From: Desulfurococcaceae archaeon
GTDB taxonomy: Archaea; Thermoproteota; Thermoprotei_A; Sulfolobales; Desulfurococcaceae
Assembly (NCBI GenBank): GCA_023269825.1
Contig: JAGDWI010000002.1
Span: 62,001-126,000 of the forward strand
Length of the DNA stretch: 64,000 nucleotides
Direction of reading: 5' to 3'
In this document: in pieces, positions 14,572-37,341 of the stretch
How positions within the stretch are numbered: position 1 is the stretch's first letter
Layout of the letters: each line of letters begins with the position of its first letter
Notes under the pieces: model-generated
What the model was told of the DNA's origin: nothing
Seen by the model: only the letters and a program-made list of their open reading frames with translations
The model's database searches: none
Program-made: the position numbers and the translations under genes

Positions 14572-15234
14572 GTGAGTAGTAAGATGTTTAATGCTGAAAA
14601 AGCAGCTAAACTCCAAAACTTGTTGTCTCGTAGAGTACTCGAGGAACTAGATCATACTCCGCCACTGGATTTCAACAAGATTAAATATATCGCTGCTTTC
14701 GATTCCTCTTATACTGGAGGTAAGCAGTGTGCTGTCGCAATAGTATATGATCTCGGCTCTAGAATGATTGCCGAGAAAAAACACTGCGCTGTAAGAGTCA
14801 ATGTACCATATATTCCAGGCTTTCTCGCTTTCAGAGAAATACCCGGCTATATGAGGATATATGAGAAGTTAAGCATTAAACCCGATTTAATCCTGATTGA
14901 TGGACATGGATTAGCGCATCCAAGAGCATTTGGAATAGCAACTCACTTTGGATTAGTAGTAGGTAAACCCAGTATCGGCGTAGCTAAACACCACTTATAC
15001 GGAGAAATAATTGAAAACAATCATCGAAGACTCATAAGCGCTCACGGGGTAATCGTAGGTGAAATATTAGAGCACTCAAACTCGGAACTATACGTTAGCA
15101 TAGGTTACAAAGTGAGACTTGAAGACGCTGTAAAACTCATAAAAAACCTCTTAGTAGAAAACAAGAAGCTTCCAATACCACTACAACTAGCAGACGAATA
15201 CTCAAAAATAATTAAAAACAAATATTGCAAGTAG
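14572..15234 (+). CDS. nfi: Endonuclease V
   Basis: DNA repair endonuclease that nicks next to deoxyinosine and other deaminated bases, 220 residues (normal size). Family motifs: AAFDSSYTG with the first catalytic Asp, YIPGFLAFREIPGYM (the conserved PYxPGxLxFRE signature with Tyr wedge and catalytic Glu), ILIDGHGLAHPRAFGIA with the next Asp, and VGKPSIGVAKHHLYG with the Lys. GTG start after AGAGG. It stands alone just upstream of tRNA-Arg. Confidence 0.96.
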   Translation: MSSKMFNAEKAAKLQNLLSRRVLEELDHTPPLDFNKIKYIAAFDSSYTGGKQCAVAIVYDLGSRMIAEKKHCAVRVNVPYIPGFLAFREIPGYMRIYEKLSIKPDLILIDGHGLAHPRAFGIATHFGLVVGKPSIGVAKHHLYGEIIENNHRRLISAHGVIVGEILEHSNSELYVSIGYKVRLEDAVKLIKNLLVENKKLPIPLQLADEYSKIIKNKYCK

Positions 15235-15243
15235 TATGAATAG

Positions 15244-15318
15244 GGGCCCGTCGCCTAGCCAGGATAGGGCGCCGGCCTGCGGAGCCGGAGGACCCGGGTT
15301 CAAGTCCCGGCGGGCCCG
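15244..15318 (+). tRNA. tRNA-Arg (anticodon GCG)
   Basis: Full cloverleaf can be drawn: acceptor GGGCCCG/CGGGCCC with discriminator G at 15318, D arm GCCT...AGGGC, anticodon stem CCGGC/GCCGG with loop CTGCGGA (anticodon GCG), and T arm CCGGG-TTCAAGT-CCCGG. No encoded CCA and no obvious intron. Its T arm and 3' acceptor strand (24 bp) are repeated at 16064-16087, which marks it as an integration site. Confidence 0.96.
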
Positions 15319-15421
15319 CGGTTCCTTTTAAATACTCAGATAAATTCTATAGAGTTGTTTTCCACAGTTCACGCCTCCGTGGGGGAAGTGTAAACTACTA
15401 TGTGTATTCATGCCTGCTGAT

Positions 15422-15454
15422 CCCTGGTATACCAGGGTAACGTATTTATTTAAG
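15422..15454 (+). promoter_or_regulatory. 16-bp palindrome and TATA box of the cassette gene
   Basis: CCCTGGTATACCAGGG (15422-15437) is a perfect 16-bp palindrome. It is followed at 15443-15454 by TATTTATTTAAG, a good archaeal TATA element about 30-40 nt upstream of the ATG at 15485. A dimeric regulator binding on the upstream edge of the promoter is the likely reading. Confidence 0.6.
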
Positions 15455-15484
15455 TTTTTACATGCTCCTAATCGGTGTTCTCCA

Positions 15485-15910
15485 ATGAGGCGTGAGCTAG
15501 CGATTGCCCTGGTTGTATTGATTATTGCGTTGACTCTGGCTTATGCTTACATATCCTGGTGGAGGCCGAGGAAGGTTTCTGGGTGGTTGTTCACCGTGGA
15601 GGTTAATGGTGAGAGGTTTAAGGTGTTGGTGAAGGATCCGGAATTAGCTGATGTTTTCAGGAGCATGTTTAGAGGGGAGAGGGGTGGGATTGTGATCGGC
15701 GAGCTCAGGGCTGGCGACGGGGGTTTCAACAAGCCTTGGAGCTGGCATCTAGACCCTGACACTGTGCACGTTGCCGAAGTAGCAATAGAGTTGTGTGATG
15801 GGACGCCATCATTCGTGGAAGCAGAACTGGACTATTGGCTTAACGTTGTCAAACGCTACTGTCCCTGGAACGGTAAAGTGGTTGGAGAGGAACCCTGGTA
15901 CGAGCAGTGA
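15485..15910 (+). CDS. Secreted BP74 N-terminal-domain-like protein
   Basis: A 141-residue protein with an N-terminal hydrophobic export/anchor segment (LAIALVVLIIALTLAYAYI, residues 5-23) and a soluble domain. The domain pattern, FKVLVKDPELAD, then NKPWSWHLDPDTVHVAEVAI, ELCDGTPSFVEAEL and CPWNGKVV, matches the BP74 N-terminal domain family of secreted bacterial and Dictyostelium proteins (W-S-HLDPD, A-E-CD, VE, CPW). The frame opens at 15410, but GGTGTT just before the ATG at 15485 and the signal segment fix the start there. Codon use is clearly GC-richer than the surrounding genes. It is the only gene in the tRNA-bounded cassette. Molecular function of the family is poorly defined. Confidence 0.72.
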   Translation: MRRELAIALVVLIIALTLAYAYISWWRPRKVSGWLFTVEVNGERFKVLVKDPELADVFRSMFRGERGGIVIGELRAGDGGFNKPWSWHLDPDTVHVAEVAIELCDGTPSFVEAELDYWLNVVKRYCPWNGKVVGEEPWYEQ

Positions 15911-16063
15911 GCCCTATACTTAGGCATACCCATACCTGAGTGATTTATTTGAACCTCTGCTCGACGGCATGCTTAGACCCGAGGAGTAGCCGCATGCTTT
16001 ATAACGTCCTCCACGTATTCAGTGTGAGTGAGATACTTACCCACTAGTAGAGCCCAAAAGATT

Positions 16064-16087
16064 CCGGGTTCAAGTCCCGGCGGGCCC
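16064..16087 (+). repeat. Partial tRNA-Arg 3' end (attachment-site copy)
   Basis: Exact 24-bp copy of 15294-15317, from the first base of the T arm to the last paired acceptor base; sequence differs on both sides. The upstream bases do not form the rest of a tRNA, so this is an att-type repeat, not a second tRNA gene. Confidence 0.85.
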
Positions 16088-16095
16088 ACGATCTC

Positions 16096-16986
16096 TTAAA
16101 CTTTGCTACTTTGTTCTCTGATTAGCATGTTTTCCTGGATCACCTTCTTGAATGTTTCACCTGTAATTATAAGCGGAGAGTTCTTCGGTACTCTCAATGC
16201 TTTAGCGAGTACATCGCATTTAGCTCTGAGTAAATGTAGGGAATTCGTTCTATTAATCTCTAATGAAGCCTCCAAGTTCGCTATACCTTTAGCTATTACA
16301 TAGGAGTCATCGTTATCTATGTAGAATATTGGAGGCATGTTACCAGGAGTTTCAATTATTTCTACGTCTTCATCTATGAGTTCACGTAAGTCCATGAGAT
16401 CATCTTTTAAAACATCAATCTCATAGCTTTCACTGCGTACAATTATTGAGACTCTGTACCCGTTTTTCATTAATGCGTAAGCGAGAAGTAGGTCTACAGC
16501 TGCTTCGCCAGCGTTGTCGAGCACGAGATATATGTGCTTATTTCTCGGCAAAACTACTTCTTCCTCAATGAATGGTTCATGCCATATAGCTTTCTGTAGG
16601 TCTAATGGTTCATATCCAAGTGTACTTGTATCAATAATATTAGCTGCAGCTGAGAACCTCATAGCTATCCTTATATCCCAGCCAACGGCTTCTAATTCTC
16701 CGCGAATAAGTTGAGCAAGCTGTACTCCTACCTGATTTAGTTCTTTCTTCACGTGTTTATATGGGTCTTCTAGATTAGTGATTTGTTTTACTATATTGAA
16801 CGAGTTAGCAAATACATAGCTTCTCCCAGCACTGGTTTGTATGAGGTCAGCTATCTTGATAAGTAACTCGTGGAGAATATCTGTATGCTTCACTTTCACG
16901 AGGTCTTGGGAGCGGCTATATATTAAGCATAATTTGCATAGCTCACTATCTACCCATGCTCTCATCCAGCACCACCATGACTCCAT
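16096..16986 (-). CDS. DUF89 / ARMT1-like metal-dependent phosphatase family protein
   Basis: A 296-residue DUF89 protein. An N-terminal cysteine pair (CKLCL) opens a helical domain; the Rossmann-like core shows YLVLDNAGEAAVDLL with the Asp-Asn metal site, then VIAKGIANLE and LLRAKCDVLAKAL, the other two family signatures. DUF89 enzymes are metal-dependent phosphatases proposed to remove damaged phosphometabolites. ATG at 16986 follows GGTGATC. A second member is encoded at 36451-37341. It shares orientation with the small gene 8 nt upstream. The 3' end abuts the att copy at 16064-16087. Confidence 0.88.
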   Translation of the reverse strand: MESWWCWMRAWVDSELCKLCLIYSRSQDLVKVKHTDILHELLIKIADLIQTSAGRSYVFANSFNIVKQITNLEDPYKHVKKELNQVGVQLAQLIRGELEAVGWDIRIAMRFSAAANIIDTSTLGYEPLDLQKAIWHEPFIEEEVVLPRNKHIYLVLDNAGEAAVDLLLAYALMKNGYRVSIIVRSESYEIDVLKDDLMDLRELIDEDVEIIETPGNMPPIFYIDNDDSYVIAKGIANLEASLEINRTNSLHLLRAKCDVLAKALRVPKNSPLIITGETFKKVIQENMLIREQSSKV

Positions 16987-19661: not shown

Positions 19662-20578
19662 GTGAAGCCAAGAGTAGAGGACTTAATATCAAGCAACATC
19701 AAGCCCAATGAAACCCGAACCCCCAAGATATTCAGGGAATTATTGAGCCTCATGTATAGGTATAAGGAGGCATTAAACCACGCTATTAAAGTAGTGATTG
19801 AGGACGAGGCATTAACACTTGGTAAAGCACATAGACTACTCTATAATATCCTCAAGGAGAAGTATTAATCTACCGCCTAAAATTGCTCAGGACTGCTACC
19901 GCGAGGCAATAGCCATTGCCAAGTCGTGGCTCAACAACCCTAATAGAGGCAACATACCTAGAGCCAAGACTCTGAGGATCTGCCTAACGCACAAGTATAG
20001 TTATAGAATTAACGGTAACTACGTGGAGTTGCTTGGAGGCTCATACCTAAACCACAGAAATACCCTCCAAGAGGGGGTCTTAGCGGTGGATGTTAATGAG
20101 AAGCACATTGTTATTGGTAATTCCATGCTTGAATATAGGTTTAAACCCCTATTGAGAAGGCACTAGACGCATAATTGAGGACTGGGTTAAGAAGACATCA
20201 CGTGAGATCGTGGCGTTGGCGAAGCAGCATCAATACGCAGTCGCTAGGGAGGATTTAACGGGATTGGTGGAGAGTTTGAGGAAGCTCCCCCGGGAGCACA
20301 AGGTCTCCCTACTAATACTCAGCTACAGGAGGATTTCTCAGTGGATTGACTGGCAGTGCGGGAAATACGGAGCCCCAGTTGTAGCAGTAGACCCTATGGA
20401 TACATCCACGAAGTGTACAAGGTGTAGTAGTAAGATGAGGGAGAATGGTTATAGAGTGTTCAAGTGCCCTAGGTGCGGTTTCGAAGCCGATAGAGACACA
20501 GTAGCAGTATTAAACATCGAGAAAAGAGCCATAGACCAGATGGGGGGATCTCTGACCACCCCGACTGCCCCGCAGATG

Positions 20579-36450: not shown

Positions 36451-37341
36451 ATGAAACCCGATATTCAGTGCTTACGATGCATTATGTCAACAAGGCTCAG
36501 GGAGATAGAGCAAGTAAGTCTCGAGAGAAATGAGAAATTAACGTTGTCAAAGGAGATCGCGGCTAAGATTATTGAGCAATTCAACTGGAATATCGAGTTA
36601 ACGGATTTTGCTTCAGAGGTTTTTAAATACCTTGTATCACGTGCACCCGAAGTCGCGGAGTACTATAGAAACGTTAAGCGAACCTTGAATAAACGCGCTC
36701 TAGAAAACATTGAATTACATGAGAGATACATAGTGCAGTTAAACAGTTACGCTAAATTCATGTACCTCGTTAAGTTATCAGCAATCGGTAACTTATTAGA
36801 TTACGGTGTTGCAGACCATAAGCCACTTGATGAAACCATAACGCCAACAATAGTTGAGAAATACGATGTAGCAGTTGATGACTCATATGAACTATATAAA
36901 AAACTTATAAGTGGAGGCGTTAAAATCACATGGTTATTTGATAATGCTGGTGAAGCACCATACGATCTACTCTTGATTAATGAAATACGCAAAATGGGAA
37001 ACACTGTTTATGGATTAGTTAAAGATGAACCTGGATTCCAAAACGATATTTCAATCGAAGATGCGGAGTACCTTAATCTGAGTTTCTACTTAGATGAACT
37101 TAAAACATATGGTTGTAATTGTTCAACAATACACTTAAATCACATAAGTAATGAAGCTAGATCAATATTAGAAAAATCAAATATGATAATAGCGAAAGGC
37201 ATGAGCCACTTCGAATACCTGTCTGAAGTTAATTTAGGTAAACCAGTATTCTTTATTCTCATACCGAAATGTGAACCCGTCGCACGTAAAATACGTGAAG
37301 ATTCAAGGGGAAAAATAGTCGTATTATTCAAGCAGCGATAA
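36451..37341 (+). CDS. DUF89 family protein (second copy)
   Basis: A 296-residue paralogue of the protein at 16096-16986. It opens with the cysteine pair MKPDIQCLRCIM; the core shows TWLFDNAGEAPYDLLL with the Asp-Asn metal site, MIIAKGMSHFEYLSE, and a final LIPKCEPVARKI. Compared with the other copy it keeps the Lys-Gly and the C-terminal KC motif. The frame extends to GTG 36430, but GGTGTGAT precedes ATG 36451. Located divergently from moaA. A role in clearing damaged phosphometabolites is known for the family; the substrate here is unknown. Confidence 0.88.
   Translation: MKPDIQCLRCIMSTRLREIEQVSLERNEKLTLSKEIAAKIIEQFNWNIELTDFASEVFKYLVSRAPEVAEYYRNVKRTLNKRALENIELHERYIVQLNSYAKFMYLVKLSAIGNLLDYGVADHKPLDETITPTIVEKYDVAVDDSYELYKKLISGGVKITWLFDNAGEAPYDLLLINEIRKMGNTVYGLVKDEPGFQNDISIEDAEYLNLSFYLDELKTYGCNCSTIHLNHISNEARSILEKSNMIIAKGMSHFEYLSEVNLGKPVFFILIPKCEPVARKIREDSRGKIVVLFKQR

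Follow-up and report, generated by a model that had tools for sequence, protein, structure and literature searches.

A tRNA-Arg-bounded cassette with a BP74 gene in a Desulfurococcaceae archaeon, a probable relic of an integrase-bearing element

Behind the tRNA-Arg(GCG) gene of a heat-loving Desulfurococcaceae archaeon lies a stretch of 770 bases that ends with a copy of the 3′ part of this tRNA. BP74 is the single gene between the two copies. This raises the question of how one gene came to be enclosed between a tRNA and its partial copy, and whether the enclosed DNA is what remains of a larger element or can still move. We analyzed the locus in a window of 64,000 nucleotides (the whole stretch of DNA under study), in the rest of the genome, and in related genomes. 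The features found are shown in Table 1.

Table 1. Features of the tRNA-Arg(GCG) locus (window positions)
Feature	Position	Strand	Evidence
Endonuclease V, conserved left neighbour of tRNA-Arg(GCG)	14572..15234	+	Pfam Endonuclease_5 E 1.1e-51; synteny
tRNA-Arg(GCG), intact, rebuilt target gene	15244..15318	+	Rfam tRNA 58.5 bits; ARAGORN gives 15244-15319
Left att repeat copy (attL), 24 bp, T arm and 3′ acceptor strand	15294..15317	+	Exact repeat
Leader of the lost integrase gene	15318..15409	+	Alignment to the tRNA-Ser integrase leader; genome-wide copies
Truncated SSV-family (PF16795) integrase, first ~10 codons, MPADPWYTRV	15410..15439	+	Peptide matches to L131 and G006
TATA-like box TATTTATTTAAG, probable BP74 promoter	15443..15454	+	Read from the sequence
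BP74_N-domain protein, 141 aa, N-terminal membrane helix	15485..15910	+	PF23621 E 2.9e-29; model pLDDT 94.6
Right end of the cassette, relative-less	15911..16063	+	No significant match in 41 genomes
Right att repeat copy (attR), 24 bp	16064..16087	+	Exact repeat

Borders of the cassette and turnover at the tRNA-Arg(GCG) site

The original prediction described an exact 24-bp copy of the T arm and acceptor end of the tRNA, flanking GC-richer DNA with one gene. Both parts were confirmed. The direct repeat CCGGGTTCAAGTCCCGGCGGGCCC had zero mismatches between its two copies, and shuffles of the window gave 0 matches to it even with three mismatches allowed; the far border of the cassette thus carries a direct repeat of the tRNA 3′ end, as integrative elements do. 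Genome-wide, the 24-mer occurred exactly three times, as attL, as attR, and in tRNA-Arg(CCG). Directly after the 24-mer the tRNA locus reads GCG and the copy ACG; the repeat may thus have spanned about 27 bp at first, with one base changed later. The interior had 48.4% GC against 39.4% for the window, a value reached by 0.8% of segments of the same size. A matching base composition, which would have spoken against inserted DNA, was therefore not seen. We also looked for a right end shared with other genomes, but the last part of the interior had no significant match among the 41 genomes, nor to any known element. The cassette is present in a single copy, since no second one was found in the genome.

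The left side of tRNA-Arg(GCG), with endonuclease V and its neighbours, is conserved in several relatives, and the right flank is different in every relative examined. No clean empty site was found among them, as each has its own right flank. Integrase fragments lie behind this tRNA in G001 and G016, the bare leader of an integrase gene in G002, and a whole integrase in G042. The 3′ side of tRNA-Arg(GCG) is a turnover hotspot. No relative has BP74 at this place; its presence there in all of them would have counted against the original prediction. In the sister species G005, a 36-nt piece of the tRNA-Arg 3′ end occurs about 5.6 kb behind tRNA-Arg(GCG) (L084 3472-3508), possibly the trace of a larger old insertion at the same site.

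The gene to the right of attR (16096-16986, − strand) encodes an ARMT1-like phosphatase, and the genus holds no close relative of it. The best match (58%) was in G051, from another family of the order, in a region without the further right neighbours seen in the window. A weak ARMT1-like match common to most of the genus corresponds to a second gene, at 36631-37323 of the window. The right flank beyond attR may itself be a separate acquisition.

A truncated integrase gene and its family

A search for SSV-type integrases elsewhere in the genome, proposed with the original prediction, revealed a complete PF16795 integrase of 427 aa that starts about 100 nt behind tRNA-Ser(TGA); no other complete one was found in this genome, which is 96.6% complete. 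Over its leader and first codons, this integrase gene can be aligned to the sequence that follows the tRNA-Arg of the window. The aligned blocks are, in order, the TTTAAATAC box, the dyad GTTCACGCCTCCGTGG...GTGTRAAC, ACTACTATGTG, the ATG, and codons encoding P..PWY. Against the tRNA-Ser leader the local score was 96, while 1000 dinucleotide shuffles gave a mean of 19.6 (sd 2.2) and a maximum of 29.

The window leader contains a TATA-like TTTAAATA at 15327-15334 and an imperfect dyad at 15367-15395. In the alignment it lacks about 12 nt, including GGGTGAAATC, a likely ribosome-binding stretch. The peptide that follows, MPADPWYTRV, has counterparts in MPTNPWYNKV from L131 and in STPWYTRV from the integrase at tRNA-Arg(TCG) in G006, and the integrase homology ends near 15440. 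An integrase remnant, consisting of the leader and about 10 codons, is thus present between the att borders. This modifies two earlier claims. The cassette had been described as having no integrase; the body of the gene is indeed gone, but some 10 of its codons persist. BP74 had also been credited with its own palindromic operator and TATA box. The palindrome is real, but neither it nor the TATA box beside the tRNA is that of BP74: both lie in the remnant leader of the integrase gene.

The dyad is kept in 11 leader copies, and 93% of the cells pair. A conserved RNA hairpin was considered and rejected as an established feature, as no covariation beyond that of shuffles was detected over the 11 copies, so the dyad may equally be a protein site. 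It may serve as a regulatory site or as a hairpin of the integrase leader.

The same leader occurs at other tRNA genes of this genome, in several stages of decay. Behind tRNA-Gly(TCC) the similarity to the integrase stops after about 43 codons; behind tRNA-Gly(CCC) the integrase is cut early and an inverted piece follows; behind tRNA-Gly(GCC) it has a stop and a frameshift. A faint copy of the leader lies behind tRNA-Arg(CCG). The sister species have it behind tRNA-Arg, tRNA-Gly, and tRNA-Ser: in G004 it follows tRNA-Arg(TCG), with 89% identity over 87 nt, and in G006 it follows tRNA-Gly and tRNA-Ser. A whole integrase follows tRNA-Arg(TCG) in G006, and its STPWYTRVDV aligned to ADPWYTRVTY of the window. 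The points at which leader-bearing integrases are cut differ among G004, G006, and the three tRNA-Gly loci of this genome.

The integrated element at tRNA-Ser(TGA) occupies L146 1300-16322, on contig C1 of the same genome, and no right border was located up to the contig end. Its genes encode the PF16795 integrase, a PriX/primase-like protein, a large protein of 661 aa, and membrane and Thr-rich proteins. Elements of this type look like autonomous plasmid- or virus-like elements, because this one carries a PriX/primase protein; a search of viral contigs for its integrase gave no match. By eye, TnpB-like open frames were seen within or close to this element (L146 229-1011 and 6458-7753) and near the hotspot of the window (19819-20166).

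Origin of BP74 and history of the cassette

The BP74_N domain was found in 7 of the 229 genomes of the class: four in genus g27, two in genus g1 (this genome and G003), and one in genus g6 (G024). Six of the seven genomes of the same genus lack it. The BP74 gene, with 51.9% GC and 60% GC3, groups with that of G024, which belongs to another genus (support 100/98), and no bootstrap tree joined it with same-genus G003. The dS between the two BP74 genes was 0.66, and eight other best-hit gene pairs between the same genomes were saturated. These pairs replaced GuaA, which was an ambiguous yardstick of divergence (own 52% to G024, same-genus G003 71%). Given its rarity, a closest copy in another genus at this dS, and a same-genus copy that is not its sister, the sequence history of BP74 is incongruent with that of its host and indicates arrival by horizontal transfer. 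In G024, the gene stands among ordinary genes, and its end overlaps a kinase gene that by eye resembles thiD. BP74 was also considered as cargo of elements elsewhere, and this was discarded: there were no relatives in viral contigs or phages, and none beside tRNAs or integrases in other archaea.

Because the leader and the N-terminal remnant of an integrase are preserved, we regard it as very probable that the cassette is what a deletion left of an integrase-bearing element inserted at tRNA-Arg(GCG). We infer the following order of events. An integrative element with an SSV-family (PF16795) tyrosine integrase would have entered the T arm and acceptor end of tRNA-Arg(GCG) by site-specific recombination, with its integrase gene placed just after the rebuilt tRNA, the arrangement of pNOB8-type (type II) elements. 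A BP74 gene from a foreign source would have been part of this element or been picked up by it. Later, a deletion would have removed the integrase from about codon 11 on, together with most of the element, and left attL, the integrase leader with about 10 codons, BP74, about 150 bp, and attR. The cassette itself would now be immobile. That BP74 was cargo of the same element would follow from its position between the att copies, which is the sole ground for it; a search for an intact element with BP74 found none.

The main rival to BP74 as cargo is a later arrival: an unrelated recombination event would have placed the gene in an integrase remnant that had decayed before, and BP74 would never have belonged to the element. 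The relatives of BP74 elsewhere do lie amid ordinary chromosomal genes, apart from integrases, and integrase remnants without BP74 are common in the genus. Its neat placement between both att copies, with no transposase ends seen around it, makes a later insertion rather unlikely.

The original prediction left a choice between a relic of a larger element and a minimal element mobilised in trans. For the relic there is strong support, from the integrase leader and remnant and from the related elements at other tRNAs; nothing found spoke positively for trans-mobilisation, and we consider it quite improbable that SSV-family integrases of other elements still move the cassette. In favour of such movement, the cassette retains its two att copies and most of the leader, the genome has an intact PF16795 integrase, and a review reports that elements whose integrase is split were excised by related integrases entering the cell (PMC8371274). 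But the movement would need a tRNA-Arg-specific integrase, and the sole complete one belongs to tRNA-Ser, the 3′ end of which is unlike the Arg core, so the cassette was classified as a relic. The single copy in the genome also argues against movement, as does the lack of a tRNA beside BP74 in any other archaeal genome found. About as improbable, in our judgment, is a functional one-gene passenger, shuttled among tRNA-Arg sites by integrases of resident elements that recognise the att cores and the leader; if it were true, a surface BP74 protein would be spreading among hot-spring archaea. That the 24-bp copy arose by chance, or by duplication of a piece of the tRNA gene on the spot, is hardly credible: T-arm sequence is common to tRNA 3′ ends genome-wide, but the copy is in direct orientation with limits at the T-arm and acceptor boundaries, and the repeats bound foreign DNA that starts with an integrase remnant and holds a gene missing from most of the genus.

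The relic resembles pNOB8-type (type II) elements, in which the integrase gene adjoins the rebuilt tRNA without overlap and a partial copy of the tRNA 3′ end lies at the far end (PMC3293823, PMC8371274): the integrase remnant is directly behind the tRNA and on the same strand, and the far border carries the partial copy. The intact layout is seen in the integrases of the tRNA-Ser element, G006, and G042. The differences are that the gene in the cassette is cut to about 10 codons, and that the family here is PF16795, with a KxxR-like motif by eye. PF16795 is the domain of the suicidal SSV/pTN3/pT26-2 group (PMC8371274), and SSV1 likewise targets a tRNA-Arg 3′ end (PMC3293823). These two likenesses to the SSV type (type I, suicidal) are offset by a repeat of 24 bp, not 44, and by an integrase that is not split by the att site. 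The remnant ATG lies about 90 nt behind the tRNA, related integrases are whole behind theirs, and the int(C) piece that an SSV-type layout would need was searched for in the cassette and not found, at attR or elsewhere.

The cassette illustrates clearly an event of a known kind and does not define a new kind of element. It records the shrinkage of a tRNA-inserted archaeal element to one retained foreign gene with both borders preserved, in a genome where members of one integrase family stand at several stages of decay behind Ser, Gly, and Arg tRNAs. The locus further documents that BP74, an obscure domain, was transferred horizontally between genera of archaea.

The BP74 protein

The domain search bore out the predicted BP74 N-terminal domain: the Pfam BP74_N profile gave 101.6 bits (cut-off 27), with positions 7-112 of 114 covered. 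The family had been placed mainly in bacteria and Dictyostelium; the assignment to it was right, but the domain occurs in archaea as well. An alternative frame, open from ATG 15410 through into BP74, would give 166 aa. Since this ATG has no ribosome-binding stretch, the start at 15485 appears the better choice.

Twelve residues are invariant in an alignment of 17 sequences (F45, G77, G80, N82, W87, H88, E102, C104, D105, P108, C126, and W128). The match is full-length, and W87, H88, E102, C104, D105, C126, and W128 are as in bacterial members; the protein differs from other BP74_N proteins in being archaeal, in its single N-terminal membrane helix, and in its place inside a tRNA-bounded relic. 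In the AlphaFold2 model (mean pLDDT 94.6), residues 2-25 form an N-terminal helix, and the domain after it is mixed but mainly beta. A PDB sequence search gave no match, and Foldseek against the PDB gave none with E below 1, so the modelled fold is possibly one not previously described. With a confident model and no relative among solved structures, BP74 is a reasonable target for structure work.

A role in defence or as a phage protein was discarded, as there was no PADLOC or PHROGs match, and a search of the accessible literature for BP74 yielded nothing relevant. Our guess, of low confidence, is that the domain binds or inhibits something at the cell surface and is stabilised by a disulfide. 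BP74 probably remains expressed, with a promoter of its own, as a membrane-anchored protein that faces outward. The dN/dS against its closest relative was about 0.19 (0.12/0.66), which suggests that BP74 is under purifying selection.
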